A DNA stretch of 64,000 nucleotides from Catalinimonas alkaloidigena (GTDB lineage Bacteria > Bacteroidota > Bacteroidia > Cytophagales > Cyclobacteriaceae). Where the stretch lies: positions 7,164,001 through 7,228,000 of the forward strand of contig NZ_JAQFIL010000001.1 of assembly GCF_029504655.1 (NCBI RefSeq), given 5' to 3'. The position numbers and the translations under genes are program-made. Shown in pieces: positions 36,401 to 53,875 of this stretch (positions are counted from its first letter, which is position 1; each line of letters opens with the position of its first letter). Under the pieces are notes generated by a model, which was not told the origin of the DNA, made no database searches, and saw only the letters and a program-made list of their open reading frames with translations.

Positions 36401-37629
36401 TATGCTGTAGGTTGTTCTGTAGTAGGTTGATTATTTTGATTTGATACTGGTACAGGTGGTAGACCGAATAACATTTCCCTTCTTTCATCCTGAGTAAGAT
36501 TTTGTAATAGGGTTTCAGGATATAACTGTATAGGTAGTTCTGTTTTCAAATCTATAGTACCCAAACCATTCACAGATAAAATTTTGTTTATTCCATCTAT
36601 CAGTAATTTTTGTAAACTGTTTGTAACGTTGTTTTTGAATAAATTGTAGGCTATGAACAACTTATTCGCATCACCTCCCAAATCACTACCTTTTGTCGAT
36701 ATCCCTGCAAGTTCCTGTGATGATCTATGTCCGGTAGAAATTTTGCTGATAGTTGTATCTGTTAAATGTTGAAATAAATCGGGATTATTATTAGCCTGTA
36801 CTGGTAAAATCTCAACTCTATATTCATCAGCACTGTAATTAAATACAACTTTAGAAGTATTATGACTTCCAGTAAATGAATTTAAAAATTGATCTTTGAA
36901 CCACTTTTTTTGTTCCTCGCTAGGACTACCATATACATTAATTATTGCTGAAGAAAAGAAACCGTTTGAAATGCTTGCCAAATGAAAAGTGCTTAACTCT
37001 TTTTCAATATCTACATAGTTCAAAATGCTGTTGTAGCTCGGAATTGTGATGTACGGATTACCTGGGGAGTATCTTCTTATTTCTAATATCTGTGTGTATT
37101 CCTCTTCTCCATTTTCGTCTTGACTACCTTTCGTTGAAAAGGCTGGATAGGTAGTGTACTTCTTGAATTTATTTTTATTATACCCTTTTTTCAAAGATTT
37201 TTCAGTAACTGCATACCTACTCACTTTTCCGTATTCATCCGACTCGATAGGTGTAACACAAGTACGATCTAAGAAATCAAATTCAACTATTTTTGTCCGG
37301 TCAATATTCCAGTTGACTTGAATATATGCTGTTTCAAACAGAGAGAGATCAAAAGATAACTTATCAATTAATTCATTGATATTGTTGCTGTTAAGAAATC
37401 GAAGGGTTTCACCTGATTTTTCATTTGTTACAATTTCACCTGCTATAAGGTCTTTCTTCAGGTTGATAAAGTTGCTGTGAGTTGCAGAATTGTAGTGATA
37501 TTTTTCAACTAAAAGATCGAAATAATCAGCACCTGATTTTGTTTGAAGAGTGATTAGACCATTACGGTTTACAGTTTCAGTTGCAACTGTTTGCTCAATA
37601 TTAGAGAGGTTAATTATTATACTTTCCAA
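36400..37629 (-). CDS. Phage portal protein
   Basis: A 409-residue protein with blocks seen in portal proteins of Bacteroidota phages: RRYSPGNPYITIPSYNSILN near residue 185, IEKELSTFHLASISNGFFSS near 210, a following I-N-V-Y-G-S-P-S-E-E-Q region, and ISTGHRSSQELAGIST near 295. It would form the dodecameric DNA gate of the capsid. The start is TTG at 37629; no in-frame ATG is available near the N-terminus. The phage motif CTATTTATA lies 12 bases upstream within a short inverted repeat. Its place near the end of the late operon, far from terminase, is unusual. Confidence 0.8.
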   Translation of the reverse strand: MESIIINLSNIEQTVATETVNRNGLITLQTKSGADYFDLLVEKYHYNSATHSNFINLKKDLIAGEIVTNEKSGETLRFLNSNNINELIDKLSFDLSLFETAYIQVNWNIDRTKIVEFDFLDRTCVTPIESDEYGKVSRYAVTEKSLKKGYNKNKFKKYTTYPAFSTKGSQDENGEEEYTQILEIRRYSPGNPYITIPSYNSILNYVDIEKELSTFHLASISNGFFSSAIINVYGSPSEEQKKWFKDQFLNSFTGSHNTSKVVFNYSADEYRVEILPVQANNNPDLFQHLTDTTISKISTGHRSSQELAGISTKGSDLGGDANKLFIAYNLFKNNVTNSLQKLLIDGINKILSVNGLGTIDLKTELPIQLYPETLLQNLTQDERREMLFGLPPVPVSNQNNQPTTEQPTA

Positions 37630-37641
37630 AAGCTATTTTAT

Positions 37642-37650
37642 TATAAATAG
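37642..37650 (-). promoter_or_regulatory. CTATTTATA motif before the portal gene
   Basis: Exact CTATTTATA on the coding strand, 12 bases before the TTG start. The flanks AGCTATTT and AAATAGCT (37633-37652) can form a hairpin just before the start codon. Confidence 0.6.
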
Positions 37651-37677
37651 CTTCCTTTCAGTTATCTGTCGTTTGTA

Positions 37678-37809
37678 TTAACCCAGTGGACCACCCATCA
37701 CATAAGGCATTCCTGCATAATATATCTGTGAATATTCTGCACTACTATTTTCTGAAAACTTCTTAATTTTTACTGGTTGTCTCTTAATGTAAAATTTGTA
37801 TCTCTTCAT
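37678..37809 (-). CDS. Small basic phage protein (43 aa)
   Basis: ATG at 37809 to TAA at 37678. The product begins MKRYKFYIKRQPVKIKKF and ends in a Gly/Pro-rich tail. Its ATG shares a base with the stop of the 44-residue gene just upstream (TAATG), a sign of coupled translation. The two small proteins share a basic N-terminus and may be paralogues. No known family was recognised. Confidence 0.55.
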   Translation of the reverse strand: MKRYKFYIKRQPVKIKKFSENSSAEYSQIYYAGMPYVMGGPLG

Positions 37810-37943
37810 TATCTATATTCTGTATAGTCGTATTCGTCTGAATATTCTTGATTATATGTGTTATGCTTCGTGAATTTTTTCAACGTTATAACCTTTGCTA
37901 CCTGCTTAATACAGAACTTTCTGACTTGCTTTTTCTTATCCAT
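37809..37943 (-). CDS. Small basic phage protein (44 aa)
   Basis: ATG at 37943 to TAA at 37809. The N-terminus MDKKKQVRKFCIKQVAKV is basic and the C-terminus is rich in Tyr, Asp and Glu. It starts 2 bases after the stop of the 129-residue gene and is coupled by TAATG to the next small gene. Its position between fibre-region and portal genes suggests a minor structural or assembly role, but there is no motif evidence. Confidence 0.55.
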   Translation of the reverse strand: MDKKKQVRKFCIKQVAKVITLKKFTKHNTYNQEYSDEYDYTEYR

Positions 37944-37945
37944 AA

Positions 37946-38335
37946 TTAACTAGGAAAACCAGCAGGGAATGAATAAGGGAATCCTTCACCAGAATCGACA
38001 GTATAAGCTATGTCTTGTAATACCTGTAATTTTCCTCCAAAAGCCGTAAAAGGTTCACCTTCAGGTGAAATAAATTGTAATTGAAATTGATACAAATCAG
38101 CAGGAATAACAGTAAACGATGAAGGAATAATAATTACTCCTGTATTAGGTCCGGTAAATGTCACTCCTGTTTGATTCAGTCCGTAAGATGCTGATATTAT
38201 TGCTTCACTGTAAGTATACTTTCGTACCTGAAAAAGCGCACCCCATCCTGCTGTAAGTACGATATCGTCATCGAGTATTTGAAAAGGTATTTCTAATTGA
38301 TCTCCCTGAACTAACTTTATATTTTCACTAAGCAA
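37946..38335 (-). CDS. Phage protein with predicted beta-sandwich (baseplate or fibre accessory)
   Basis: A 129-residue protein made largely of beta-strand-like segments: VQGDQLEIPFQILDDD at the N-terminus, then FQVRKYTYSEAI and Y-Q-F-Q-L-Q-F-I-S-P-E-G. The start resembles the N-terminal domain of baseplate-upper-protein-type polypeptides, which carry a Q-G-D-x-x-x-x-P-F pattern, but this is a weak likeness. The start is TTG at 38335, 13 bases after a CTATTTATA motif. It follows the tail fibre gene, so a role in the fibre or baseplate is plausible. Confidence 0.55.
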   Translation of the reverse strand: MLSENIKLVQGDQLEIPFQILDDDIVLTAGWGALFQVRKYTYSEAIISASYGLNQTGVTFTGPNTGVIIIPSSFTVIPADLYQFQLQFISPEGEPFTAFGGKLQVLQDIAYTVDSGEGFPYSFPAGFPS

Positions 38336-38348
38336 AGTCTTTCTTTTT

Positions 38349-38357
38349 TATAAATAG
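38349..38357 (-). promoter_or_regulatory. CTATTTATA motif before the 129-aa gene
   Basis: Exact motif 13 bases before a TTG start codon. It lies in the 23-base gap after the tail fibre gene. Confidence 0.6.
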
Positions 38358-38358
38358 T

Positions 38359-40650
38359 TTAAGCTACTTTTATAGCTGTCATAGAGTATCTTGTAACAAA
38401 AGCATTAGAATTCCCTCCTGTGCTAGTTCCATACAGGTAAAAATTAATATTATTTGTACTTCCAGTTCTGAATGTTGTAGAAACATTAAATATTTTTTGA
38501 GGATGTTCAGAAGCTGTTATAACATCTTGATGCGATTGTGCTAATACACCTGTATTACTTGAATCTAGTACACAATATATTCTAGTATCTACAGCTGAAA
38601 GCCTTTCAAATGAAACACTACAAGTAACTGTCACTATGTATTCACCTGTAGATACTGCATAATCCTGATCTACTAGTGTTGTTTGTGTAGTAGTAACTGT
38701 AGTATCGTTTGAAGCACCTATTTCATAATATGAATTAATAGAACCACCACCTGCACCAGTACTATATCTTCCATCAAGATCAACAGTTAACGTACTTAAT
38801 CCTGATCTACCTAATGATAATATTCCTGTACCTGTATCAAAACTGAGAGAATTAGCATAGTTATTAGTATCAGTTGTTGAATATCTACCATCAAGATCAA
38901 CGGTAACACTTCCATTTTGTCTGTTCAGAGTTAATACACCTGTTCCGGTATTGAATGTACTTCCAGTTACATAATTATTACCATCAGCACCACCTCCTGA
39001 AGGGATTGATTGTACACTAAGAGTTCCATCAGGTAATGCTACAACCATTCTTGTACCTGTCCCAGCAAGATTAGATATAAGTACATCTTTGCTTGTAGAG
39101 ATTAGACTACTTGAAAAATTTTCAAAAGGTTTATTAAATAAATCGTTATAATTTTCACTGAATCGAGGAATACTAACCGTTACATTTCCGTTTTGTCTAT
39201 TCAGGGTTAAAATACTTCCGCTATATGTAGCACCTGTTATGTAATTGTCTGTATTCTGAAAACTTGGAATGTCCTGAGTAGTAATCAGATTATTTGTACC
39301 AAGTACCAACATTTTCGTACTAGCTAAATTTTTATCCCATCTGACAGAATCCGGTAAAATAAGTTGATCACTATTAATCTGAGTAAATCCGGTACTGACT
39401 GTCATTACAGATTGTCCATTAGTACGCATCTGAATTGAATCTGAATTAATAGCTACTTCACCAGCTAATGCGCTATTTTCTGATGATAATTTTAAGGTTG
39501 ATGAGTTACCAAATACCCTAGTATTGACCTGAATGTTATTATTGAAAACAACAGTGTTGTTTGTAGTAGCTCCTACATCTGTCACTTGTTGTAAAGTAGG
39601 TGTACCAGCATCGTTAGTAGTACCTGTAATGGTAATTACATTGTTCTCAATTGCTATACCCTGACCAAGTGTCAATTCTCCTAGATATCCATCATTTGAA
39701 AACCCTGCTATAGTTGTTCCTGTAATTTGTCGGTTACTGAACTTTGTCAATCCGTTGTAATCCATCTGAATATACCCTGTACTACCAGATAGATATAATT
39801 CAGATGCTGTTTTGATAATTAAGCTTTGAGGCGCACCACCTCCGCTAAGGTCTTTTTGATGTATTAATCCGTTTTTTATTTCAAGTACTCCTGCTATATA
39901 TTTACTTCCTTCAAACTCACCAAAATTGTTAACTGATGCTATATCATGAAAATGAATTATATCTTCTTCTATCCTGAATTGATCATTATTTGAATTGAAT
40001 GCATTGAAAATATATCCGCTATTACCATTATCAAACTTGAAGTAGTCAGCAGGTAGACTTACAATAGTTACACCTGATTCAGTGTACTGAGTATATGTAT
40101 TACTAATATATCCTGTATAACTTTCACCTCCCTGAATAAAGTTATCAAAAACAGTAGTAGATGCTGAACCACCTTGTACAATTCCGTTTTCAAATTCAAC
40201 AGTAACCGCTGTTCCTCCTGAAATTAGATATTGAAACCCTCCAACGCTTGTTTTTGATTCAAAGTATTTTGCTTGAATATGGTTTGTAGTAGTGTTTCCT
40301 TCATCAGTAACACTTTGAAGATCCTGTAAACCTTCGTATTCAGAAGCTAAAAGGTATCTTCCATCAAGATCAACTGTTAAGCTGGGTAATTCATTTCTAT
40401 TCAATGTCAGTGTACCATCAGCAGTATTGAAGGATACACTTGTCACATAATTATTTGTACCTCCTGATGTTTCACCACTCAAATTTAGATCACTCAAATC
40501 TACTATAAGTGCATCAGAATTATTTTTCACCAGAATTAACTGACTGTAACTATTCAGATATGCATCTATTATTGTCTCATCGATAGCACTGTTTGTATTT
40601 TTTACAAGTGTAGATACTTTGTCGGTTGATAATATTCGTTCTAATGCCAT
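38359..40650 (-). CDS. Phage tail fibre/receptor-binding protein with sequence repeats
   Basis: A 763-residue Gly/Ser/Thr/Asn-rich protein. A repeat unit of the form N-Y-V-T-x-x-x-F-N-T-x-x-G-x-L-T-L-N-R, followed by S-x-T-V-D-L-D-G-R-Y, recurs near residues 65, 520, 585 and 625, with a degenerate copy near 490. The last ~120 residues form a compact C-terminal domain ending T-R-Y-S-M-T-A-I-K-V-A, the probable receptor-binding tip or trimer cap. The ATG shares one base with the stop of the upstream tail-tube-like gene. The repeats and composition fit a trimeric tail fibre that sets host range. Confidence 0.75.
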   Translation of the reverse strand: MALERILSTDKVSTLVKNTNSAIDETIIDAYLNSYSQLILVKNNSDALIVDLSDLNLSGETSGGTNNYVTSVSFNTADGTLTLNRNELPSLTVDLDGRYLLASEYEGLQDLQSVTDEGNTTTNHIQAKYFESKTSVGGFQYLISGGTAVTVEFENGIVQGGSASTTVFDNFIQGGESYTGYISNTYTQYTESGVTIVSLPADYFKFDNGNSGYIFNAFNSNNDQFRIEEDIIHFHDIASVNNFGEFEGSKYIAGVLEIKNGLIHQKDLSGGGAPQSLIIKTASELYLSGSTGYIQMDYNGLTKFSNRQITGTTIAGFSNDGYLGELTLGQGIAIENNVITITGTTNDAGTPTLQQVTDVGATTNNTVVFNNNIQVNTRVFGNSSTLKLSSENSALAGEVAINSDSIQMRTNGQSVMTVSTGFTQINSDQLILPDSVRWDKNLASTKMLVLGTNNLITTQDIPSFQNTDNYITGATYSGSILTLNRQNGNVTVSIPRFSENYNDLFNKPFENFSSSLISTSKDVLISNLAGTGTRMVVALPDGTLSVQSIPSGGGADGNNYVTGSTFNTGTGVLTLNRQNGSVTVDLDGRYSTTDTNNYANSLSFDTGTGILSLGRSGLSTLTVDLDGRYSTGAGGGSINSYYEIGASNDTTVTTTQTTLVDQDYAVSTGEYIVTVTCSVSFERLSAVDTRIYCVLDSSNTGVLAQSHQDVITASEHPQKIFNVSTTFRTGSTNNINFYLYGTSTGGNSNAFVTRYSMTAIKVA

Positions 40651-41717
40651 TAGTTAAAATCTGATATTCTTGCATCTGCAATCGTAGGAATTGCAATATT
40701 ATTTGTAGCGAAGTCGCTCATAGAGAAGTCATCGTACAGGGAACTTACTGTATATGTATTGTTTAATATCTCTGTGATATGATTTTCTGATATTTCTTTC
40801 ATGTTATGTCTACTATATCCTGAAAATTCTAATTCATATGCTTGATTATCAGTAGATGCACCGTATTTCTTCAACCTAATTGATCTATCTAATCCAGCTA
40901 CCCACCAGTGTGAGTTCTCATCTTTCACCACTACCAGTAAATTTTTCAGCTTAATAATATTTGTGATTTGTTCTCTTCTCAGTGCAGACAGATTGATTAT
41001 GTTGAAAGTAAAGTTTTGTTGAAAAAGAATTCCTTCGGGACCTAGTTCTAAAGATTCAGATAATTCTGTTGATTCAGGATCTACATCGAATTGATTAAAT
41101 AATAAATCTACTCCCTCTATTTTTGTAACTACATTGTTATTACTTATATCAAGTGCATATCTCAAATCAGCAGGATAATTCCCTATCCAAAGCTGATCAA
41201 TTCCTGCAATACTGTATTCACAATTACTAATCAATGTATTACCAGAAAGGTACTGTGCAGCATATGTAAGGCTTACTTCCTGAAACCTTATCCTGTTTGT
41301 TCCCTCTAAAGTTAGATCATACCTGTTTTCACCTGTAGCATTTCCGGTACTACTTTCAAAAGCTGAGATTTTCAAACCTTTATCGATGCCAGCTATCCAA
41401 CACTGATTTGAATAATCTTGTACCATCACTAACAATCTACTTTTTGTGAGTAGTTGTAATTCTTTCAGTTTACTTGCAGCTATGTGAAGATATTTCAGTG
41501 AAATGTTTTGTGTATAAGTTTTTCCTGCTGGGGTACGGTTCAAACTTTCTGACAAATTCACTTCATCAGAATCAACGTCAAAACTTAACCAAGAAAGTGA
41601 TTCCGGTATATCTTCAATAGTGTGAAAATCATTATTGAGATAAAGAGGATTGATTTTTTTGTGAGAAGCTATCAAAAGTTTTTTGACACCTGGAATATTA
41701 AAGTCGATACAATTCAA
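40650..41717 (-). CDS. Tandem tail-tube-like domain protein
   Basis: About 355 residues built from two copies of the domain found once in the adjacent major tail protein. Copies begin near DFNIPGVKKLLIASHK and EYSIAGIDQLWIGNYPADL and both continue with a D-x-x-E-L-S-E-S-L-type strand, then NFTFNIINLSALRREQ and LLVVVKDENSHWWVAGLD type segments. It probably forms a special ring at the tail tube end or a distal tail element. The ATG at 41747 lies upstream of the CTATTTATA motif, so I prefer the in-frame TTG at 41717, 14 bases after it, as in neighbouring genes. Confidence 0.6.
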   Translation of the reverse strand: MNCIDFNIPGVKKLLIASHKKINPLYLNNDFHTIEDIPESLSWLSFDVDSDEVNLSESLNRTPAGKTYTQNISLKYLHIAASKLKELQLLTKSRLLVMVQDYSNQCWIAGIDKGLKISAFESSTGNATGENRYDLTLEGTNRIRFQEVSLTYAAQYLSGNTLISNCEYSIAGIDQLWIGNYPADLRYALDISNNNVVTKIEGVDLLFNQFDVDPESTELSESLELGPEGILFQQNFTFNIINLSALRREQITNIIKLKNLLVVVKDENSHWWVAGLDRSIRLKKYGASTDNQAYELEFSGYSRHNMKEISENHITEILNNTYTVSSLYDDFSMSDFATNNIAIPTIADARISDFN

Positions 41718-41731
41718 TAGAGTTGCTTTTC

Positions 41732-41740
41732 TATAAATAG
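41732..41740 (-). promoter_or_regulatory. CTATTTATA motif before the tandem tail-tube-like gene
   Basis: Exact motif 14 bases before TTG 41717. It lies just downstream of the terminator of the major tail gene, which fits a new transcription or translation start here. Confidence 0.6.
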
Positions 41741-41750
41741 CCACCATCCC

Positions 41751-41785
41751 AAATAAAAAAGTCCCTAACTGTAAGCTAAGGACTT
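41751..41785 (-). terminator. Intrinsic terminator after the major tail gene
   Basis: On the minus strand AAGTCC (41785-41780) pairs with GGACTT (41764-41759), followed by a T-rich run ending at 41751. It lies about 40 bases after the stop of the 169-residue tail gene. Confidence 0.7.
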
Positions 41786-41827
41786 AGTAAAAATTATGAA
41801 AAGCGGATTATTAATTGATTAGTATTA

Positions 41828-42337: not shown

Positions 42338-42375
42338 TTAGTTATATTTTTATTCAATGTTCTTTATGAAATATG

Positions 42376-42396
42376 ATCCCCCATTAATAGGGGGAT
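42376..42396 (-). terminator. Hairpin between capsid and tail tube genes
   Basis: ATCCCCC (42376-42382) and GGGGGAT (42390-42396) form a stem with a 7-base loop, 10 bases after the capsid stop. The T-run is poor, so it may attenuate or protect the capsid mRNA 3' end rather than fully terminate. Confidence 0.5.
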
Positions 42397-42405
42397 ATAT
42401 TAGTT

Positions 42406-43320
42406 TTATGCAGGGTTATATCTGTATACAACCTCTTCAGGATAAGCGATTTTAGTATCTACAGAACCATCTAAACGGAATGATATAATATCATCCTGAG
42501 TAGTTTCGCTGTGATCTACTACACGTACCTGATTATAATCGCTAACTAAGTCAGTACCTAGATAGAAATTATCTTTCATACCTGCGATAATACTATCATC
42601 ATCTATTGCATGAGACTCAAACAAGCTCATTCCTAGATAAGTGAAAGGTTGATCAGCTGTAAATGTCTGCATCATTTGACCGCTACCTGCAATTTTATAT
42701 AGTGCCATAGCTTTACGGCTCATATAGATAGCAGCTTCAGAAGGTTCAATTTCTAATTCGTGCAATGCTTCATATACTTTTGCTAATTCATCAGCAATAT
42801 TTGAAGCAGTAAGAGTAGAACCTGTGATTTTAACAGCTTCAGTAGTACCTGCTGAACTCGATAGAATAGTTTCATATCCGTTAATCGCATCCATTACATT
42901 AGTAGTAGTTCCGGTTGTTTTAGTTGCAGACCAGATAGCTTTTTCTATCTTTTTGCTAACCATTTTACCCATTCTTTCTACTAACCATTCATCGAAAGTA
43001 AAATCGGTATTCTGAGCGCCTGGGGTCATCTTTTCAGCTTCCCACGTCTGGATTAATGCTCTTTTCTCTTCTTCTATGTGAACTGTAAAATTCCAAGGTT
43101 CCAGAACAAATTCTGAGTAAGAGAATTTTGAAGTACCTGAAAATTTTGCTTGATAAGGTTTAAGGTCAAAGTCTTCAAGTGACCTTTTCCCGATATTCGT
43201 TTTGTATTTGATGTTAGGCAGAATCTGCACCATCTGTGTATCGAGAGTAGGTGCGCCTAAGATTGCTTTTGAAATGTAAGGTGTAGCTAATGTTCCTACA
43301 TAATTACTAGTAATTGACAA
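42406..43320 (-). CDS. Major capsid protein (HK97-fold type)
   Basis: A 304-residue protein typical in size and layout of short phage capsid proteins: an N-terminal arm, FSYSEFVLEPWNFTVHIEEE near 67 with E-loop-like position, then VERMGKMVSKKIEKAIWSAT near 115. The central region is helix-rich (L-A-K-V-Y-E-A-L-H-E-L), and the end reads KIAYPEEVVYRYNP. It follows the protease-scaffold and an SH3-like gene. The start is TTG at 43320; an out-of-frame ATG is just upstream. A weak variant of the phage motif (CTATTTAAG) lies 65 bases before the start. Confidence 0.75.
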   Translation of the reverse strand: MSITSNYVGTLATPYISKAILGAPTLDTQMVQILPNIKYKTNIGKRSLEDFDLKPYQAKFSGTSKFSYSEFVLEPWNFTVHIEEEKRALIQTWEAEKMTPGAQNTDFTFDEWLVERMGKMVSKKIEKAIWSATKTTGTTTNVMDAINGYETILSSSAGTTEAVKITGSTLTASNIADELAKVYEALHELEIEPSEAAIYMSRKAMALYKIAGSGQMMQTFTADQPFTYLGMSLFESHAIDDDSIIAGMKDNFYLGTDLVSDYNQVRVVDHSETTQDDIISFRLDGSVDTKIAYPEEVVYRYNPA

Positions 43321-43385
43321 TTCATGAATGTTTTCTTTTTGTTGTTATTGATAGCGCAAAGGCTAATATTTTTTTGTTCTTTATT

Positions 43386-43394
43386 CTTAAATAG
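43386..43394 (-). promoter_or_regulatory. Variant CTATTTAAG motif upstream of the capsid gene
   Basis: A degenerate copy of the phage motif in the 104-base gap before the capsid gene. Its spacing to the TTG start (65 bases) is unlike the other copies, so it may be chance. Confidence 0.3.
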
Positions 43395-43907: not shown

Positions 43908-43908
43908 T

Positions 43909-45207
43909 CTAGTTCTGTGAGATTGTTTTTAAAGCATGGTAAGCATACTTTTCAGCTGTAGATAGTTTAGTGTAATCTTCAGTATCAGATTTTAAGCTTT
44001 GAGTAACTATTTTCTTCCCTGCTGGTAACTTACTAAGCTTAGTTTCAAGCTCTGTCTTTTCATTTTTCAGCTTTTCAATTTCAGATTTTGCTGTAGAAAG
44101 TTCAGCTTGTAACGCTTCTATCTGTCTACTCATTTCCATTTCAGGAGTTACAACTTCTACAAGTCTACTTTCTGCAATTACCATCGTTCTACCATCTTCA
44201 AGGGTATAAGAACCATCTTCAACCGATTCAGTTACTACATTTCCTTCTCCATCAATTTCAATTACATCTCCATTATCGAGTATATAAGATTCACCTGTAG
44301 ATTCTTCTGGATCACTGTCTTCTGTCTCATCGATTATTTCTGCATCTGCAATTTCTGAAGCAATGTCTGCTACATCTTCGGTTGATTCAGCTGGGGTAAA
44401 TGTTGCTACACCTTCTGCTACTACTAATGTTCCACCTTCTACAGGATATTCACCATCTTGTACACCTTCACTTATTACAGTTCCGGTTTCGTCATCAACC
44501 TCGATTGTCATTTCTCCTGAAACGTACGTAGCTAATTTGACTTCTTTTTCTTGTAATTCAGTTTCTGATTCTGATTCATACTCTACAAATAACGTTTTAA
44601 GTGCAGATAAGAATTTTGAAAATTTTGATTCTTCTTTTTTCATATTAGATTTTTTGGGTTTAGGTTGTTGTTCTGGGATAGGTATGTTGATATCTAGCAT
44701 TGCTTCAATACTAAATCCGTTAAGTTCTCCTGATAATACTTTGCTGAATACTTCCTGATCAGGTACTTTATAAGACATTACCCAACTTCCTGCTGGTAAT
44801 TTTTCAAGTCCGATAACCTGACTTTTATCTTTTTCAGAATCGCTTACTATCCAAGATTCCACGACATACATATCTGATCTTGAAAGTGCTTCTTTATGCT
44901 CAATATTAGTTTGATCACTACGTTTCTCTCTCTGAAATTTATCACGTAGCTTTTCAATTTGATCACTACTGAATGATAGATAATAAGGGAATCCTTCAGC
45001 ACTATATCTGATAATCTTTTTATCTGGGATAAGTACAGCACCTGTAACAATCTGTTTGTGTTTATTAAATTTGAAAGCTTGATTCTGTTGCTTATTAAGT
45101 GCTACAAAATTTGACTCTATTGCAGGATCATTTACAAAGCTAACTGTCTGTACTCCTGAAAGCTCATCTTCATCATTAAGTTGAATACTATATACTGGAA
45201 TTTCCAA
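43909..45207 (-). CDS. Prohead protease fused to scaffold (XkdF-like)
   Basis: A 432-residue protein. Residues about 1-185 resemble XkdF-type phage proteases: the likely catalytic His is in SDQTNIEHKEALSRSD near 102 and the likely Ser in LNGFSIEAMLDI near 172, with WVMSYKVPDQEVF between them. The middle has two copies of a beta motif (EDGSYTLEDGRTMVIAES and QDGEYPVEGGTLVVAEG), and the C-terminus is a coiled coil (EIEKLKNEKTELETKLSKLP) fit for scaffolding. It lies two genes before the major capsid gene, as expected. The start is TTG 45207 with CTATTTATA 13 bases upstream. Confidence 0.75.
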   Translation of the reverse strand: MEIPVYSIQLNDEDELSGVQTVSFVNDPAIESNFVALNKQQNQAFKFNKHKQIVTGAVLIPDKKIIRYSAEGFPYYLSFSSDQIEKLRDKFQREKRSDQTNIEHKEALSRSDMYVVESWIVSDSEKDKSQVIGLEKLPAGSWVMSYKVPDQEVFSKVLSGELNGFSIEAMLDINIPIPEQQPKPKKSNMKKEESKFSKFLSALKTLFVEYESESETELQEKEVKLATYVSGEMTIEVDDETGTVISEGVQDGEYPVEGGTLVVAEGVATFTPAESTEDVADIASEIADAEIIDETEDSDPEESTGESYILDNGDVIEIDGEGNVVTESVEDGSYTLEDGRTMVIAESRLVEVVTPEMEMSRQIEALQAELSTAKSEIEKLKNEKTELETKLSKLPAGKKIVTQSLKSDTEDYTKLSTAEKYAYHALKTISQN

Positions 45208-45220
45208 AACTGATTTTTTA

Positions 45221-45229
45221 TATAAATAG
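45221..45229 (-). promoter_or_regulatory. CTATTTATA motif before the protease-scaffold gene
   Basis: Exact motif 13 bases before the TTG start codon, within the 38-base gap after the tape measure gene. Confidence 0.6.
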
Positions 45230-45245: not shown

Positions 45246-47393
45246 TTACAGGGATGCAGTTCTTTCAAGTTCCTTCACTCGATTATTAGTCCTGTTGAAT
45301 TCGTTGATACCTACATTCACCTTTATATCCTTTTGATCACCTGTAGAAATTCCAGAACTCAAACTGTTATTAATAGTCTGGAAATCAGGTTCGTTTAATC
45401 CACCATCAGCATATATTTTGAATTTTTTCCTTTTACCTTCTCTGTTAATCCTGTCAAGTATATGCAGGTTGTTTGCAGTAGCTTGTCTATTAATGAAATA
45501 CTCTTCCCCTTCTGCTTCTACCATCTGTCCAGAATTAGTATTAATTACATTTATCCCACCTTCACGATGAGATTTTCCCTTCAGCAAACCACCCTTAGCA
45601 AATTTCTGTTTAGCAATGATTCCGGTTTGTACAGCACCCATTGCACCCACTATTGCAGCAAGTACTACGTTAGGAAGTGCCTGAGTAACGCCAACTGCTG
45701 TGTTGATGATAGAACTACTTATCGCACGAATTTTATCAGCAATAGCTCTCTTTTTCTCAGCTTCCTGAATTTTCTTTTCTTGTTCAATCTTCTGCTTTGC
45801 TAGAAACTCTTCTCTTTTTCTCTCCTTATCGATCAGACCGATTATTTGATCTTTTCTAGCACCCTTCGCTGCATCCGCTTGCTGTTCCAGTGCTGTTATT
45901 TTCTGGATTGACTGACTTTGACTTTCTGTAAGTTGATCTAATTTTCTAGTACTTCTTTCTATCTGTCTATCAAGACTTGTAGTAATTGCACTAGCTATCT
46001 GATCATAACCTTCCAAAACTTTTGTACCTATTGCTGCTATTTTGTCTTCTAATTCAGCATCTTCTGATACTCCGAATAATCCTTCCAGCAAACTGGGTGT
46101 ATCTTCATCTTCAGATAAGGTTTCATTATTTTTCTTAACAATTTCCTTAAGTCCTGGAAGAAATTTATCCTGCATCAATTTATTTAATTTCTGAAGTCTG
46201 GGATCTATCTCTTTTTCATCAGGAATACCGAAAATATCAGGTAGATCAGAACCTTCACTAAGCACTTTTTTAGTGTTTTCAGCATTCTTTTTTAACTCAT
46301 CCAGTCTTTTTTGATCAGCAGTATTAATTGCATCTATACGGGCTTGTTCCTGCTCAATCAGGAATATTGTTTTATCCGTTTCTACCTGCTTATATTCATC
46401 AGAATCGGCCTTATACAAGGACTTTTTTAGCTCAAAAATTTCTAATTGAAGCTTTTCAACATCTTTTTTCTTAGCTTTTTCTATAGAAAGAATGCGTTCT
46501 TTTTCCTTTATAGCGGATTCTATAGACTCTTTTCTTAGTTTTTCATCGTGTTTGTACTGTTCCTCACGCATTTTCCTGAGTTCAGCAGCACGATTTTGGG
46601 CAACTCTTGTAATTTGTTTATCAATTGCTGCCTGAGAATCTGAAGATATTTCCTGAATTTCCTCAATGGCCTGTTTGAACTCCCCACGAACAAGTGCTAA
46701 TGCAGCTTCACCTATGTTTTTGAAAACAGCTTTGGCAATTTCCCCTGCAATTTTGAATGCTCCACTGATACCACCTACACGATCAGAGAATTCTTTAAGA
46801 GGTTTTATACTGTCTGTAATCCATTTTGTAAGATCTTCCCAGTATGCCACCACAGCACCCAACGCAACTACAAACAAACCGATCCCAGTTGCAGCAAGTG
46901 CGATTCTGGTAGTAGTAGAAAAGGACTTTGCACCAACACCAGCTAACTTAAAATTTGCTAATGCTGATTGTCCGAATAATTTGTAAGCAGATGTAGCACC
47001 TTCTGTTATCTTTTTTACACCATCTAAAGCAACTACAAGATTCAATGCAGTTGCTTGTGCTTTCTGTATTTGTTCCGCTGTTTTCTCTCCGAATGCTGAA
47101 CTTGCCACTGTAGCAATTGCAAAACCACCTGCTAAACCTTCACCAATTTTGAACAAGTTTTCAGCACGTTCAGCACTAGACATTGTAGTAAGAGATTCAT
47201 CTATCTTACCTATCTCTCCCCGTGTTTGTACTAATTGTTTGCGAAGTTTTTCAAAATTATCAGAACCTAACTCTGAGGTTTCTAATTGTGCTTCAAGTTC
47301 TTTTGCAGTTTCCTGAAGTTGAGACATCGATTTGATTTCCTTATCCAGTCCATCAATCTTAATGCTATATATTTTTTGATTTTGTGTAGCCAA
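45246..47393 (-). CDS. Tail tape measure protein
   Basis: A 715-residue largely helical protein: coiled coil at residues 15-75, hydrophobic segments near 85-105, 170-190 and 580-605, long charged coiled coils between, and a C-terminal GKSHREGGINVINTNSGQMV, typical of phage tape measure proteins, where a G-x-S-H-x-x-G-G-I motif recurs. It sets tail length; at about 1.5 angstrom per residue the tail would be near 100 nm (a family rule, not measured). The start is TTG 47393 with CTATTTATA 16 bases upstream. Confidence 0.82.
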   Translation of the reverse strand: MATQNQKIYSIKIDGLDKEIKSMSQLQETAKELEAQLETSELGSDNFEKLRKQLVQTRGEIGKIDESLTTMSSAERAENLFKIGEGLAGGFAIATVASSAFGEKTAEQIQKAQATALNLVVALDGVKKITEGATSAYKLFGQSALANFKLAGVGAKSFSTTTRIALAATGIGLFVVALGAVVAYWEDLTKWITDSIKPLKEFSDRVGGISGAFKIAGEIAKAVFKNIGEAALALVRGEFKQAIEEIQEISSDSQAAIDKQITRVAQNRAAELRKMREEQYKHDEKLRKESIESAIKEKERILSIEKAKKKDVEKLQLEIFELKKSLYKADSDEYKQVETDKTIFLIEQEQARIDAINTADQKRLDELKKNAENTKKVLSEGSDLPDIFGIPDEKEIDPRLQKLNKLMQDKFLPGLKEIVKKNNETLSEDEDTPSLLEGLFGVSEDAELEDKIAAIGTKVLEGYDQIASAITTSLDRQIERSTRKLDQLTESQSQSIQKITALEQQADAAKGARKDQIIGLIDKERKREEFLAKQKIEQEKKIQEAEKKRAIADKIRAISSSIINTAVGVTQALPNVVLAAIVGAMGAVQTGIIAKQKFAKGGLLKGKSHREGGINVINTNSGQMVEAEGEEYFINRQATANNLHILDRINREGKRKKFKIYADGGLNEPDFQTINNSLSSGISTGDQKDIKVNVGINEFNRTNNRVKELERTASL

Positions 47394-47409
47394 GTTGCTA
47401 TCTATTTCA

Positions 47410-47418
47410 TATAAATAG
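47410..47418 (-). promoter_or_regulatory. CTATTTATA motif before the tape measure gene
   Basis: Exact motif 16 bases before the TTG start. With the following AAATAG it forms a short inverted repeat (CTATTT-ATATG-AAATAG). Confidence 0.6.
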
Positions 47419-47444: not shown

Positions 47445-49103
47445 TTATCTGATTCTCTTAACTATCAAACTTGCAATATTTTCTACAGGATCATAAGCAC
47501 GTATCTCTACAAGTCTCCAATCTACACCTTTATATCGTAAAGGGATATTAGGTTGACATTCTATCCAGTCTTTTTCTGACATATTCATATCAAATTCTAA
47601 TAGATGTCCTCTATCATTGTTGAAGTATTTTGACCTGTAAAATTTGTTGTACAGGTTATTTTCATCAGCAGAATTATATGAAAGATTTATAGTATTACCT
47701 GTACTACTTGTTCTAGTAGAATTCTCCTGATAATTACTCGTAAATGTCATTTTAACTTTCCCAACGCTTTCCCCCATATTGAGATAATACCAGTTCTCAC
47801 TGTCTGGGATAGTGGGTAATCCTTCATAATGTAAAATCCTAAGTCCAGAACCATAACTCATATTTTCAGCTACAGGAATTTCATCATAATAATGTGTTTC
47901 TTCACTTACCCTTTCCTGTTCAGTGATATAAGGAATAGAAAAAGGTCTGTTATTAGCAGATGTTTCAGCACCTGTAAGACTTCTTTTATTGTACCAAAAC
48001 ACAGGATTATAAATAGTTCCACTAAAAGGTAATGTAACCTTGTACCCTGAGTTCTGAGAGTTGAATTTTAGTGCCTGAGTACTGGAACTATCAGCAGTTT
48101 CCTTGAAGTTTACAGCAATATTCCTCTGATTATCTTCAAGTCTCTTTTCTATTACAGAATCAGCATAAACCTTTGATGTTATATTATAGCTATATTCAGA
48201 AGGGAGAATATAACTATCATATCTTTCCAAATACAAAGTATTCTGTTTCCCCAAAACTTGAAGGTTGAACATACTGATCAATCCTTTGATAAAATCAATC
48301 TGTTTTACATTATCAGGAAGGAATTCATGTAAATACAAAGTACCGTACTGATCAGCACGTTCCCATACATCAGCACTACCTGCATAAGGTAAAATAAGCT
48401 TGTTTATTTCAGCATCTTCTGCCCATGAACCTTTTAGTTTCCAGCCTATACCGGACAAAATTTTCTTTAATAGATTCACTACATAGAAGCTTGGAGGAAA
48501 ATAAAAGTAAGGTGTAAAATTCACTACTTCTGTATTTCCTGAATCTACATAACTATTATATATGTTGCTGTAAGTACCGTACTGATTTTGTTCAGGTGTT
48601 AATGTATATCCTGACTCAACAGAGAAGGTTTTATAGAAGATTAAAGGAAATTGATAATCAGTTTGAGAGTTATCATACCCTGCTTCATTGTGTGCTTTTA
48701 TAGTAGCTTCGTAGTTGTAACTAATAGGATCTATTTCTATATCTCTTAACGTTTTTTCTTCTAGTAGATCACTAAGAGAACCTAACTTACTATATAATAC
48801 TACTTCGTATTCATCACCTGTAATACTGTTCACTTTTAGATTTCCTTCAAGTATTTTTTCAGAGTTTACGAGTACTGTAATATCAAAAACAGAATAGAAC
48901 TTATCTATCACATAGAAATCATCTATAGAATTCAATACCAGATTATTCACCTTTGTTTTGGGAAGGTTGAAGGTATAAGAGAAGTCATTGAAACGTTTTT
49001 CAGGATTATTAAGATCTTCTACTATCCTGTTAAGTAAAATATTCAATGAATCTTCAGGAAGATCAAGTACAGTATTGTTACATATAAGAGTAAGAACGTT
49101 CAT
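47445..49103 (-). CDS. Phage minor tail protein
   Basis: A 552-residue protein with the pattern common in Bacteroidota phage tail proteins that follow the tape measure: RIVEDLNNPEKRFNDFSYTF near residue 28, then LPKTKVNNLVLNSI and LFYVIDKF-like beta segments. The C-terminus reads WRLVEIRAYDPVENIASLIV. It probably forms the distal tail or baseplate hub region. Its ATG overlaps the stop of the 728-residue gene, so it is translationally coupled, and it has no CTATTTATA motif. Confidence 0.65.
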   Translation of the reverse strand: MNVLTLICNNTVLDLPEDSLNILLNRIVEDLNNPEKRFNDFSYTFNLPKTKVNNLVLNSIDDFYVIDKFYSVFDITVLVNSEKILEGNLKVNSITGDEYEVVLYSKLGSLSDLLEEKTLRDIEIDPISYNYEATIKAHNEAGYDNSQTDYQFPLIFYKTFSVESGYTLTPEQNQYGTYSNIYNSYVDSGNTEVVNFTPYFYFPPSFYVVNLLKKILSGIGWKLKGSWAEDAEINKLILPYAGSADVWERADQYGTLYLHEFLPDNVKQIDFIKGLISMFNLQVLGKQNTLYLERYDSYILPSEYSYNITSKVYADSVIEKRLEDNQRNIAVNFKETADSSSTQALKFNSQNSGYKVTLPFSGTIYNPVFWYNKRSLTGAETSANNRPFSIPYITEQERVSEETHYYDEIPVAENMSYGSGLRILHYEGLPTIPDSENWYYLNMGESVGKVKMTFTSNYQENSTRTSSTGNTINLSYNSADENNLYNKFYRSKYFNNDRGHLLEFDMNMSEKDWIECQPNIPLRYKGVDWRLVEIRAYDPVENIASLIVKRIR

Positions 49104-51289
49104 TATTGACTGATACTATTTTCAGGAATGCTTTCAGTTATTGATAGCGATATGCTATAGAAGTCTTCATCAGTACTTTTCTCATACCTGACATTTGAAG
49201 TAGTAACAGATACCCAAGAATCATTTTTGTTAATATATATCTGTGATGACTTAATTAGTTCTTTTAACCAATTAAATGTTTCTGTACTGACAATTCCGCT
49301 ATTGAGTTCATACACATTTTGTACAACTACCTTTTTAGTACTGGTGATGCTGTCAGATGTAGACAATTTACCGTAGTAACTTCTATTGTAATTGCTAACG
49401 GTCCGAGTAATTGAATCTGTTACTTCTCCTACAAAACGGAATGATTCAAAAGCACCAAGTGAGTTTTGGAATAAGACATCAAAACCTGTATCACTTTCTT
49501 CTACAGATAATTCATAAGTCTGTACCTGATTAAATTCAGAACCACCAGTTTGTAATTTCACTTCAATTTTCCAAACGCTTTTTGGTTCACTACTTATTGA
49601 AAATACTGATGGACTAGATTCAAAGTAATATACACCACTACCTGTAATTGATTCTGTACTTAGTGTTCTCCATTGTGTTTGAGTATGATCAAAGAAATAA
49701 AATCTGTATTTGATAGATACATCTGTTACTCCATTGGTAGTAACAAAATATAAATAATCCTTTTGTTCCGAATGTACAGGCTTTAAATCAGGTGCATTAC
49801 TTAGAAAAGGTCCCTGATTATAAACTGATAATGTATTCTGTACAGGTAATGGTAAAGATGCATTCAATACATACTTTGTAATTCCGCTAGTTTCAAAAGG
49901 GTATTGAAATTTATACCCACCTGTAGATTTAGCGTACAATTCACCTAAATCATAATCATACTTTTTAAGATGGTTAGTACTTTTAGTGAATCCTGTGCTT
50001 TGATAACTGGGAACATATGTGTTTACATAATTCTTAAGTATTCCGGCTAAGTCAAAGTGATTTCTAGGAAGTACATAAGGTTGTTCTATAGTTTTAATGT
50101 ACTCCAGTTCATCAGCTTCATTTTCTACATATATATTTACATAGTATCCGTAATCTGACTTTGTTTCAGCTACAAATTTTGAAGATCCACTTTGAATAAG
50201 GGTAGATGAAATTCCTGTACTATTATCTATAAGAGTATCACCTGGAATAAGCTCATATTTACTACCTACTTTTTTGCTAGTAACTGTTACAGTCGCACCT
50301 GATGAATTTGCATAATAAAGCTTGTTCAAAATAGGATGATCATTTATAGCGAACCTCAGAGAATTAGCTACATCTCCTAAAGTGTTTCCTGATGTTGTGA
50401 AGAATTCCGCAAATGAAGGATCATCTTTTGCAGTGAGTTTTATGTCTATATTGTTGCTTTTAAATTGTATATAATCACCATCACTGATATTATTTGAAAC
50501 TGTTATATCCGTTTTGGAATAACTAGGAGTATCATCAAGTATTTTAGAACTCAAACTTACCAGTATAGGATTCTCAGAAGCGGTTAATAATGCAGGTTGA
50601 GATTCTACAATAATATTATCTGTTGTAGTTGTTCCTGTATCACCTGTTGTACCTGAACTTGTACCTACCGTAGCAGTATCATTTGCAGTTGTACCAGATA
50701 CATTTCGTACAAAAACATCATAATCACCTGCTGCAAGTCCTGTAAACCCACTTGTCGAAAAATAAGTACTACCTGAATCAATACTGTATTCAATAGTATC
50801 AGGAGTAACATTTGTACTTGCTGAAATTGCTAAAGCACCATCTGTTGCACCTGAAGATGATACATCCGTTACTTCAATATTATCTATAGTAATTTCAGAT
50901 GCAGGTTCAGGAATTGATTGTTGATCAAGATAGAAATGTTCTCTGGTGATTTCAGAAGGATCATTGTATTCGTAGCAAACCTTATAAAAATCCTGAGGTA
51001 ACGTACTACCTGTATAAGTTAATTTGAAGTAGGTTTCACCAGTTATAACGCTGCTACCATCTCCCTGACTATCTACAGTCCAGAATTCTCTGAAATCAAT
51101 AGGAATACCTTCATCCTGATAAGTTGTTACTCCAGATGATACACTAATATCAAAATGTCGTAAACATTCATATGTAGATCCCGATCCGCAATTGTTATCA
51201 CAATCATCTATTTGAACAGATACGTTAACAGCATCTATTGTATTATCTGCTTTTCTATAAAAGTATTTTTTAGTGCTATATGAAGCCAT
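49103..51289 (-). CDS. Large phage tail protein with SprB-like repeat
   Basis: A 728-residue Ser/Thr-rich protein. Residues about 135-205 resemble a SprB-type repeat of Bacteroidota surface adhesins: VTDVSSSGATDGALAIS, then I-E-Y-S-I-D-S-G-S-T-Y-F, FTGLAAGDYDVFVRNVSGTT. Later blocks include an LPRNHFDLAGILKNYVN segment near 400 and a long beta-rich part. It is probably a tail-tip or adhesin-like component. It is coupled by shared start/stop bases to both neighbours and begins with ATG. Confidence 0.6.
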   Translation of the reverse strand: MASYSTKKYFYRKADNTIDAVNVSVQIDDCDNNCGSGSTYECLRHFDISVSSGVTTYQDEGIPIDFREFWTVDSQGDGSSVITGETYFKLTYTGSTLPQDFYKVCYEYNDPSEITREHFYLDQQSIPEPASEITIDNIEVTDVSSSGATDGALAISASTNVTPDTIEYSIDSGSTYFSTSGFTGLAAGDYDVFVRNVSGTTANDTATVGTSSGTTGDTGTTTTDNIIVESQPALLTASENPILVSLSSKILDDTPSYSKTDITVSNNISDGDYIQFKSNNIDIKLTAKDDPSFAEFFTTSGNTLGDVANSLRFAINDHPILNKLYYANSSGATVTVTSKKVGSKYELIPGDTLIDNSTGISSTLIQSGSSKFVAETKSDYGYYVNIYVENEADELEYIKTIEQPYVLPRNHFDLAGILKNYVNTYVPSYQSTGFTKSTNHLKKYDYDLGELYAKSTGGYKFQYPFETSGITKYVLNASLPLPVQNTLSVYNQGPFLSNAPDLKPVHSEQKDYLYFVTTNGVTDVSIKYRFYFFDHTQTQWRTLSTESITGSGVYYFESSPSVFSISSEPKSVWKIEVKLQTGGSEFNQVQTYELSVEESDTGFDVLFQNSLGAFESFRFVGEVTDSITRTVSNYNRSYYGKLSTSDSITSTKKVVVQNVYELNSGIVSTETFNWLKELIKSSQIYINKNDSWVSVTTSNVRYEKSTDEDFYSISLSITESIPENSISQ

Positions 51290-51771
51290 TATTTTTCGTT
51301 AAAGTATTGTGTTAATTCCGCTGTAATTGTATCAAGCAAATCAGCATCAATTGCAGTTTCAAATGTACGTTGTGCTGTATCATTGACAGCTTGTATAAAA
51401 TTCCTTCCTCTAATCCCGTTCAAATAAATAGACCTCTGTATTACCCAAGCAAGCTGATTCTGAGACATTTTTGAATCACGAGGTCTGATATTATATCTTC
51501 GTATCCATTCTAGTAAAGCTTTGTAAGGTACACGTTTTGTGAATTTTTTTCTTCCCTGGGATAAGTATTCATAATAGTAATTTGCGAACCATGCCAACTC
51601 GAACTGATCAGGGTTATAACTTGAGTTTACAGAGTTAACAAGCCTACTGTTTTTCGGTACATTTTTTTCCAGCATCACAAATTTTATCTGTTTCTCAATG
51701 CTAGCAGCTAGATCAGAAAGCATCTGAATCATTCGCTGCTGGGTAGATAGTTGTATAGAATTATTTGCCAT
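51289..51771 (-). CDS. Phage neck/tail completion-like protein
   Basis: A 160-residue basic helical protein with a block YYYEYLSQGRKKFTKRVPYK near residue 67 and IQRSIYLNGIRGRNFIQAVN near 110. Its size and position, between a tail-terminator-like gene and tail genes, resemble HK97 gp10-type neck proteins, in which Y-L-x-x-G segments recur, but I did not find a decisive motif. ATG start coupled to the upstream stop. Confidence 0.55.
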   Translation of the reverse strand: MANNSIQLSTQQRMIQMLSDLAASIEKQIKFVMLEKNVPKNSRLVNSVNSSYNPDQFELAWFANYYYEYLSQGRKKFTKRVPYKALLEWIRRYNIRPRDSKMSQNQLAWVIQRSIYLNGIRGRNFIQAVNDTAQRTFETAIDADLLDTITAELTQYFNEK

Positions 51772-52217
51772 TACTCAGAAAGAAAGATTGTTGAATCGCA
51801 TGATTTATTTAGAACAGTGATTTCAAATTCTGCACGTACTCCATATGAACTATCTGTTGTGTGATTGATCAGGATTAGAGAAGAAAAAGAAAAAGGATTA
51901 CTGAATTGTATCGCTTTATTTTTCTTCAATTCAAAAATTATTTGCGATGCCCAATCTTCACACTCACTAATAATATCTATTCTTTGCTGATCTGTTATAG
52001 AGGAACTTTCAGGGAGTTGTGAGATTACCATACCTATTCTATACCGCTTAAATTTTTCATTTGTCTCAACGTTGAAAGGTAACTCAAGAAAACAACGGGG
52101 ATATACATCATTACCATAGATCGTTTCATCTTCTGACTCTCCGAATGAAAATGAATTAATGTGCTTATGCCTATCAGCTATCTGTTCAAATGCTTGTACT
52201 ATTTCTGAAATGCTCAA
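51771..52217 (-). CDS. Phage tail terminator-like protein
   Basis: A 148-residue protein with alternating alpha and beta segments: a helix near the N-terminus, PRCFLELPFNVE near 40, then a helix IISECEDWASQIIFELKKN near 82 and a final beta hairpin SYGVRAEFEITVLNKS. This layout and size fit tail terminator/completion proteins. The start is TTG 52217, 17 bases after CTATTTACA. It opens the tail gene block after a 930-base gap. Confidence 0.5.
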   Translation of the reverse strand: MSISEIVQAFEQIADRHKHINSFSFGESEDETIYGNDVYPRCFLELPFNVETNEKFKRYRIGMVISQLPESSSITDQQRIDIISECEDWASQIIFELKKNKAIQFSNPFSFSSLILINHTTDSSYGVRAEFEITVLNKSCDSTIFLSE

Positions 52218-52234
52218 AATGCTATCTACTTTAT

Positions 52235-52243
52235 TGTAAATAG
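52235..52243 (-). promoter_or_regulatory. CTATTTACA motif before the tail terminator-like gene
   Basis: One-base variant of the phage motif, 17 bases before the TTG start. The surrounding GCTAT...TAC and GTA...ATAGC can pair. Confidence 0.55.
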
Positions 52244-52680
52244 CAGATAGGTGAAATGAGTTTGTTTGCTACCGTTTCATTAAAGCAAAAGTAGTTTATT
52301 TAGGAAGCATAAAATCAATACCTATTTTTTAGATAATTTCAATACATAACAAAGCAATCAGTTTTTCAAAATTTTAAGAAGGTAATTTTTTGGAAAAATT
52401 CTTAATCACATATAATAATGAATAATTAATTGATTTTCAGATGTTTGTATTACTTTTTTTTAATATAAAATTTAAACATACGAACATTCGGATGACCTGA
52501 AAACATAAAATCGACTTTGTCTTCTTGATACAAATCACCACATTTGTTTAGAGACAAATAGAGAGGTTTTTAATAAAAAGCCAATAATGAAATATTTAAT
52601 TTTTGCTTTAGTATTTAGGAAGAATAATAAGCAATATAGAATTGCTTAAAAGATATGTGGTAGGATTCTATCCATACCAT

Positions 52681-52712
52681 AAAAAAACCCAACATGTTCT
52701 GACCATGCTGGG
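52681..52712 (-). terminator. Leftward terminator after the terminase transcript
   Basis: On the minus strand CCCAGCATG (52712-52704) pairs with CATGTTGGG (52696-52688), followed by T7. It ends the leftward transcript about 440 bases beyond the gene that stops at 53149, and separates it from the tail block. Confidence 0.7.
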
Positions 52713-52749
52713 CTATTTAAATTTTGTTTAACTTAAAATTATTCCGCCT

Positions 52750-52845
52750 ATGGAACAATTAACTAATGAGGATCTACAGCTGTTAATTGACGTTGCAGCT
52801 TTGATCGTATCAATTATCACGCTATATCGAGACAATGATGACTAG
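52750..52845 (+). CDS. 31-residue hydrophobic peptide gene
   Basis: ATG at 52750 to TAG at 52843-52845 encodes 31 residues: a short acidic start (MEQLTNEDLQ), one hydrophobic segment (LLIDVAALIVSIITLY) and a charged tail. A strong terminator follows 11 bases after the stop, and a leftward terminator precedes it, so it forms its own tiny transcription unit against the late genes. The layout recalls small holin-like or type I toxin peptides. That is inference; no family match was made. Confidence 0.5.
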   Translation: MEQLTNEDLQLLIDVAALIVSIITLYRDNDD

Positions 52846-52856
52846 CGTGAATCTTG

Positions 52857-52894
52857 AACAGCCCCTGGGTTTTACCTTGGGGTTGTTTTGTTTT
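52857..52894 (+). terminator. Terminator of the 31-residue peptide gene
   Basis: AACAGCCCC (52857-52865) pairs with GGGGTTGTT (52879-52887, one G-U pair), followed by TTGTTTT. The remainder of 52895-53148 has no gene I can support. Confidence 0.7.
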
Positions 52895-53148
52895 AATAGA
52901 CATTCTTAATAGTGTGTAAGACAAACATTATGTATGTATTACAAACGTATTACAGCCGTAAATGTGGTATAAATTTATTCCAAAATCAATATTAGCTGTC
53001 AGATTTTGTAATATTATCTTACAGTTTTTGTCTTAAATCTTACAACATGTAACTATAATAGACAAAATTAATACAATTTACTGCTGACTCTCTTCTCTAG
53101 TAATCTTTTCTAAATCCTTCATCATTTTTCCCTTCTCTATACTGTACA

Positions 53149-53853
53149 CTAAGAAGGAAAAGATTTCTGAAATGCTCGTTCTAAGTACACTAGATATCTG
53201 CGTAACATCTTCTTTTGCAATCGAAACCACTGTCCCGTACCAACCCATTGATGAAGCGAATTCCGAGTATCTTCGATCTTGTCTTGTACTTGAACCTGTA
53301 GCATTGAAGAGTAAAGGGTATTCAGAATCAAATCGTTGTTTCTCGACAAAAAAAAACTGGCAATGGATAATGCAGTGATACAGGGAATATTTTTAAAGTG
53401 TTCAGCACGTTGCATTGCATCGTAATCACCATAGCTTTCACCTTCACGTTTACACAACACTGCAAGTAGATAAGGGATGCTATTCAGTTGTCCGTGTTCT
53501 TTCAGGAAGTTGTCATAGTCTATATACTCTCCAAAACAACTACTGGAAAAGTCCTGATTGACATAGTATGTTTCACTTAAGTATTCAAATTCTGTAATAG
53601 AATCAAAACTGTCTATGTCAACTGAAAAAAGATAATCAAGTGATTCTAATAAAGGATTCACCAGTTCTGTACCTGTATCACGTAAAATATTTTCAGGGAT
53701 GGATGATAGATAACTGATTATCTGTAAATATTTGTTAAGGTTGCTTTCATCACTACTGATTATTTCCTGTACAATTAAGAATTGTTGAATAGTTATTTCT
53801 TCTAAGCTAGTAGGGAGAGAATACTTTTTATTATTGATTTCTATTTTCTTCAA
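53149..53853 (-). CDS. Phage protein of unknown function between terminase and tail genes
   Basis: A protein of 234 residues from the preferred TTG at 53853, in frame and 13 bases after a CTATTTATA motif; an upstream TTG near 53895 would add about 14 residues across the motif. It is acidic and helical, beginning with KKIEINNKKYSLPTSLEEIT and carrying a basic C-terminus (QKKMLRRYLVYLERAFQKS). Similar proteins occur beside tail genes of Bacteroidota phages, possibly as assembly chaperones, but I could not confirm a family. A second frame continues past its stop (see findings). Confidence 0.55.
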   Translation of the reverse strand: MKKIEINNKKYSLPTSLEEITIQQFLIVQEIISSDESNLNKYLQIISYLSSIPENILRDTGTELVNPLLESLDYLFSVDIDSFDSITEFEYLSETYYVNQDFSSSCFGEYIDYDNFLKEHGQLNSIPYLLAVLCKREGESYGDYDAMQRAEHFKNIPCITALSIASFFLSRNNDLILNTLYSSMLQVQVQDKIEDTRNSLHQWVGTGQWFRLQKKMLRRYLVYLERAFQKSFPS

Positions 53854-53866
53854 GATGCCATTTTTA

Positions 53867-53875
53867 TATAAATAG
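53867..53875 (-). promoter_or_regulatory. CTATTTATA motif before the 234-aa gene
   Basis: Exact motif 13 bases before TTG 53853. If this start is right, the motif is not coding. Confidence 0.6.

Follow-up and report, generated by a model that had tools for sequence, protein, structure and literature searches.

A strand-biased motif before TTG-initiated late genes of a Catalinimonas alkaloidigena prophage is a probable phage-specific late promoter

In a 64,000-nucleotide (nt) stretch of the Catalinimonas alkaloidigena genome (contig NZ_JAQFIL010000001.1, positions 7,164,001 to 7,228,000; hereafter the window), a first-pass annotation had noticed the motif CTATTTAYA shortly ahead of seven TTG-initiated prophage late genes. 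We found that this motif belongs to a 14-nt core, CTATTTANRNNAAA, which probably acts as a phage-specific late promoter from which near-leaderless mRNAs are made. The prophage covers 38 kb between a pair of 17-bp repeats (34.9-73.1 kb, window numbering continued past the window end); positions prefixed L053 lie outside the window. The original observation was confirmed and proved larger than described, with the extended core, further strong sites and an eighth gene outside the window.

The window contains 12 copies of CTATTTAYA, every one on the minus strand, while shuffled sequences (n=100) give 2.30 on average and 6 at most, so the enrichment implied by the annotation is real. On the prophage minus strand, 11 copies stand against 1.3-1.5 expected under Markov models of order 2-4 (maximum 5), and the plus strand has two. 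The combination of motif and TTG at 12-17 nt was found seven times on the prophage minus strand, where the same models predict 0.13-0.15 pairs (maximum 2). Alignment of the sites extended the 9-mer to the 14-nt core, with 11 strong sites in the prophage, all of the form CTATTTANR. A matrix trained on nine sites (the seven already reported, plus those of a terS-like and a tail-fibre-like gene) returned 11 sites scoring at least 17.7 bits, all within the prophage and two of them (59853 and L053:757) absent from the training set. The next-best match, at 14.6 bits, lies within a coding region, and the host flanks (35 kb preceding and 9 kb following the prophage) did not exceed 10.6. Leave-one-out scores ranged from 13.3 to 19.4. 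Genome-wide, the pattern CTATTTAYRNNAAA has 29 matches in 7.92 Mb, with 11 in the prophage (0.5% of the genome) and 18 elsewhere; the reversed pattern, used as a control, has 20. Matches cluster in the phage and are sparse in the host genome. Exact 9-mer copies at 59038, 48016 and 7042 in the window and at L053:1530 outside it have no AAA block and are probably chance occurrences.

The prophage is AT-rich, its GC content being 33% where the host sequence of the window has 46%, and many unrelated viral contigs contain one instance of the motif with a TTG behind it, which could suggest a compositional accident. Set against the 11 copies where one or two were expected, the strand bias, the longer core and corroboration from a site beyond the window, such an origin is scarcely credible.

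All seven reported sites were exact, with gaps, counted from the 9-mer end to the in-frame TTG, of 12, 13, 14, 13, 16, 17 and 13 nt in the following order, and all lie on the minus strand: the portal gene (36400-37629, with a PHROG portal match; CTATTTATAATAAA and TTG at 37629..37650), a 129-aa gene (37946-38335; CTATTTATAAAAAA, 38335..38357), the tube-like gene (40650-41717; CTATTTATAGAAAA, 41717..41740), the protease gene (43909-45207; CTATTTATATAAAA, 45207..45229), the tape-measure-like gene (45246-47393; CTATTTATATGAAA, 47393..47418), a 148-aa gene (51771-52217; CTATTTACAATAAA, 52217..52243) and a 234-aa gene (53149-53853; again CTATTTATATAAAA, 53853..53875). "Tape measure" and "tube-like" are labels of the first-pass annotation, to which no profile match of that name corresponds. 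The eighth gene encodes a 675-aa tail-fibre-like protein on the opposite strand outside the window (TTG at L053:1994); its motif, CTATTTATG at L053:1971, is one base off CTATTTAYA and lies 14 nt before the TTG.

The TTG is very probably the real start, because the protease N-terminus aligns with its homologues and several genes offer no other nearby start. In the alignment, the protease TTG falls on the residue predicted to come first in two homologues of 60-65% identity (P0002 and P0003, the closest relatives). In the portal, 129-aa, protease, tape-measure-like, 148-aa and fibre genes no ATG, GTG or TTG precedes this TTG in the open frame, and the 129-aa gene contains no ATG codon at all. TTG opens all eight genes with an adjacent motif, but only two of 22 other prophage genes (Fisher 8e-6), a count with starts chosen by reading and without the 84-, 245- and 259-aa open reading frames (ORFs) and other small unassigned frames. 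Among 88 protease loci, one of them cut off, 86 of the 87 readable ones offer an ATG no more than 15 codons from the expected start by a rule that favours ATG wherever present, and only contig L219 has TTG alone; the TTG is therefore a trait of this phage and not of its family.

This coupling of motif and start codon speaks for the other option named by the first-pass annotation, namely an RNA signal that lets translation begin at TTG in genes without upstream coupling, and so does the lack of the motif in late genes that abut a preceding stop. These behave as had been described: six of six coupled late genes (160, 728, 552, 160b, 763 and 156 aa) start with ATG without a motif, and TerL, which overlaps its upstream gene, starts with TTG, also without one. 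The 169-aa gene, preceded by a gap, has an ATG and no motif. The link between TTG and motif held for the seven genes and the fibre gene, but not throughout. The terS-like 181-aa gene (minus strand, 56660..56712) has the motif CTATTTACATAAAA at 56712 and an ATG start at 56660 beyond a stop, the TTG 11 nt past the motif being out of frame, while TerL and the capsid-like gene have a TTG with no adjacent motif. The latter (leader at 43320..43394, minus strand) has no exact copy, only CTATTTAAG 65 nt upstream of its TTG at 43320 (imperfect motif CTATTTAAGAATAAA, 9.0 bits). Moreover, several sites are placed where promoters are required, and one branch of relatives ties its box to an upstream element at a fixed distance and not to the start codon. 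Since the tie between TTG and motif is not strict, and ATG starts prevail in relatives that have other boxes, the translation signal has been weakened and is in our view unlikely, whereas the phage promoter with near-leaderless mRNAs is well backed by the architecture and by the relatives. The non-start TTG retained 11 nt after the terS-like motif hints that TTG might be part of the initially transcribed sequence, although one site proves nothing.

The promoter function is argued for by the location of the sites, as those of the terS-like, 148-aa, tube-like, 234-aa and fibre genes stand where a promoter is needed, and by the fibre gene, which confirms the motif outside the window and on the other strand. 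The terS-like gene is preceded by non-coding DNA. A consensus scan identified intrinsic-terminator-like hairpins on the minus strand at 41759..41785, with a T run and immediately upstream of the motif of the tube-like gene, and at 52686..52714, about 440 nt upstream of that of the 148-aa gene. The 234-aa site lies within a 54-nt spacer to a divergent plus-strand ORF (53908-54687), and the fibre site within a 78-nt spacer between divergent ORFs. Of the two strong sites absent from the training set, L053:757 is followed at 17 nt by the ATG of a 27-codon ORF, the stop codon of which overlaps the beginning of a 179-aa gene, and CTATTTATATTAAA is followed by an intrinsic-terminator-like hairpin (59787..59853, minus strand), with only a 24-codon ORF beginning in between. 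If the motif is a promoter, the start codons placed upstream of it (ATG 41747 and TTG 53895) would be wrong.

As had been noted, the motif does not match the host promoter box: the 11 sites fit the first five positions of TAHHTTTG, not TTTG. The partial fit of TATTTAYA to this Bacteroidetes -7 element, as given in PMC6847099, favours a promoter. A further possibility is that a phage activator or repressor uses the motif as its operator and that the host sigma factor starts transcription at a nearby -7 box that includes the TTG. TTTG is found at the TTG in four of nine gene-start sites, and the prophage encodes a 337-aa protein with several helix-turn-helix segments (58012..59025, minus strand), which matches phrog_836, "late transcriptional activator", on one short stretch (7.6e-9). 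The spacing between motif and TTG, however, varies by 5 nt, the protease TTG is by homology the likely translation start and must be transcribed, and the 11 aligned sites contain no second strong block outside the core (four of 95 columns tested at p < 0.02). We regard the operator as improbable. The 337-aa protein is, by content only, a candidate regulator or reader of the motif.

From the enrichment, the positions, the start codons and the boxes of relatives with their spacing, we infer a model in which CTATTTANRNNAAA would be the late promoter of the prophage. It would be read by a phage-specific factor or a modified RNA polymerase as a single block, with no -35 element at a fixed distance. 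RNA would begin within or directly after the AAA, leaving leaders of about 3-13 nt on the uncoupled late genes, which would be translated from the TTG; coupled late genes may start at their ATG by re-initiation. In related phages, other AT-rich boxes would play the same role, including one branch with two elements that is probably read by a phage sigma-like protein. If RNA starts 4-5 nt past the box, the leaders behind the window motif would measure about 8-13 nt, or 3-8 nt counted from the AAA end, and the mRNAs of relatives carrying the box CGTTATATA would be leaderless.

Relatives were compared through their late modules, and repeated k-mers were found in the gap windows of 12 out of 54 loci, compared to 6 out of 270 random-window controls, at 1e-7. 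By tblastn with 17 late proteins, L219 (18.9 kb) was found to hold homologues, in the same order, of the 234-, 148-, 160-, 728- and 552-aa, tape-measure-like, protease, capsid-like and 169-aa proteins. In this contig GTAATTATAT precedes four genes and TTAATTATAT a fifth, with gaps to the start of 17, 5, 38, 24 and 8 nt and ATG, ATG, GTG, TTG and ATG as starts. TAATTATAT occurs five times on the coding strand and never on the other, with 0.15-0.27 expected (maximum 4), and GTAATTATAT with one mismatch has eight forward matches and one reverse match. The boxes before the tape-measure and protease homologues are placed as in the window prophage. After the 169-aa homologue there is a hairpin with a T run (judged by eye), a box and a gene, and the window prophage has a hairpin, the motif and the tube-like gene after its 169-aa gene. 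Another contig, L268, has five copies of TCATTATATA on the coding strand against 0.01 expected; it shares with L219 a homologue of the 234-aa protein.

A further box of relatives, CGTTATATA, was counted 60 times across 81 loci; 43 copies fall in gap windows, which account for 1.9% of the sequence. Of 47 unique sites, spread over 22 loci, 39 are followed at 3-6 nt by an ATG whose reading frame either spans 55 codons or continues past the contig end; the remaining eight lack a gene of this kind, and four of these are on the opposite strand. In 37 of the 39 ATG-adjacent sites RCAAA begins exactly 20 nt upstream of CGTTATATA, the distance being constant from the box, not from the start codon, while no RCAAA-like conserved block was found upstream in the 11 aligned window-prophage sites. 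These boxes resemble the window motif in serving homologous late proteins, in their position before uncoupled genes and in a start codon within a few bases; they differ in having two elements (RCAAA, 15 nt, CGTTATATA), ATG starts and, in some, a sigma-like gene. Nonlabens phage P12024L has CGTTAATATA ending 2 nt ahead of the annotated starts of gp05, gp08 and gp42, and two further copies on the other strand. Sigma-like matches were obtained in four of ten relative records, namely gp35 of P12024L above the Sigma70_r2 cut-off and three CGTTATATA contigs below it, and none in the other six, the contigs being fragments. A profile built from three of the sigma-like proteins found the fourth at 216 bits, with weaker matches in L233, L234, L267, L238 and L271. 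The small sigma-like proteins of phages related via the late module (L310, L311, L312 and L313) measure about 160 aa.

Several findings weigh against a promoter. The gaps of 12-17 nt and the TTG in eight of eight adjacent genes also fit a translation signal, and the profile from three phage sigma-like proteins found no such gene in the prophage (best E 6.6), though a diverged one may escape it. Box placement is only partly conserved, as in L219 a box precedes the homologue of the 728-aa gene, which is coupled here, and none was found at that of the 148-aa gene; besides, the related contigs are non-independent samples. As for the motif itself, the tube-like site scores 13.3 bits in leave-one-out, below the 14.6 bits of one coding match, and a de novo search recovered the motif with a log-likelihood ratio of 37.0, not above shuffled sequences (maximum 37.8).

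Phage T4 late promoters consist of a single short, AT-rich box, TATAAATA. The window motif is likewise a single AT-rich late box, and the reverse complement of CTATTTATA contains TATAAATA, but its orientation to the gene is opposite and no T4-type late sigma was identified here. In Bacteroidetes sigmaA promoters, as described for Flavobacterium johnsoniae (PMC6847099), the -7 box TAHHTTTG lies 4-5 nt before the start site; in both cases TA opens an AT-rich box near the gene and TATTTAYA fits TAHHT, but the window motif has AYA for TTTG and a conserved AAA block, and no -33 element was found. The TA-led (leaderless) genes of PMC3160421, reported there from one of 37 Bacteroidetes/Chlorobi genomes surveyed, carry a promoter-like signal roughly 12 nt ahead of the start, similar to the gaps of 12-17 nt in the eight genes here; the TTG starts and the 14-nt core set the prophage apart. 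Phage AR9 also has a short phage-specific box common to many late genes, AACA-(6N)-TA/G, but this is ascribed to a phage multisubunit polymerase and the AR9 leaders, of 26-491 nt, are longer (PMC5312081). Leaderless transcripts in phages are no novelty in themselves; the same paper describes phage transcripts as often leaderless.

Shine-Dalgarno sites are generally missing from Bacteroidetes mRNAs, and in the species examined only a minority of mRNAs is leaderless. Leaders under 10 nt are given as about 3.7% in Bacteroides thetaiotaomicron (PMC7366714), leaderless mRNAs as 5.5% in Flavobacterium psychrophilum (PMC9723704), and leaders of 10 nt or less as 13% in F. johnsoniae, the other 87% being longer (PMC6847099). 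If true, a phage group with late promoters only bases away from the start codons would be a natural test system for start choice by ribosomes and TTG use, and would allow promoter divergence to be followed together with that of its reading factor. More tentatively, late promoters may sit atop start codons throughout a lineage of Bacteroidetes phages, with leaderless or near-leaderless late mRNAs in hosts that make few of these, and with boxes diverging along with their reading factors (sigma-like in one branch, a single-block reader here), the TTG having become fixed in this prophage.

The prophage is also recognizable from its ends and gene content. One 17-bp att-like repeat lies at the 3' end of a tRNA-Arg gene (34856..34872, plus strand) and the second is at L053:9199-9215 (= 73199-73215), beyond the window end, as is the integrase (L053:7686-9005). 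Profile matches were obtained for terminase, portal, protease, capsid-like and tail-fibre-like proteins. Immediately within the attachment site lies a GIY-YIG/NUMOD homing-endonuclease-like ORF (34908-35702). The divergent pair 53149-53853 / 53908-54687 sits between TerL and the 148-aa gene, and a PHROG search with its 259-aa plus-strand member gave no match. The ATG at 59368 of a small ORF is preceded by AAAAAAAAGGAGATA, a Shine-Dalgarno-like sequence unusual for Bacteroidetes. The 728-aa late protein (49103-51289) has no internal Met and the portal only one in 409 residues. Lastly, a 561-aa protein (L055:11989-13674, from window position 62989 past the window end) shows a family-A polymerase fold at residues 148-445, with conserved DxxNSQ, RxxxKxxxF and HDS; besides itself, a search gave three distant homologues. 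Its motif A seems to lack the usual steric-gate Glu.

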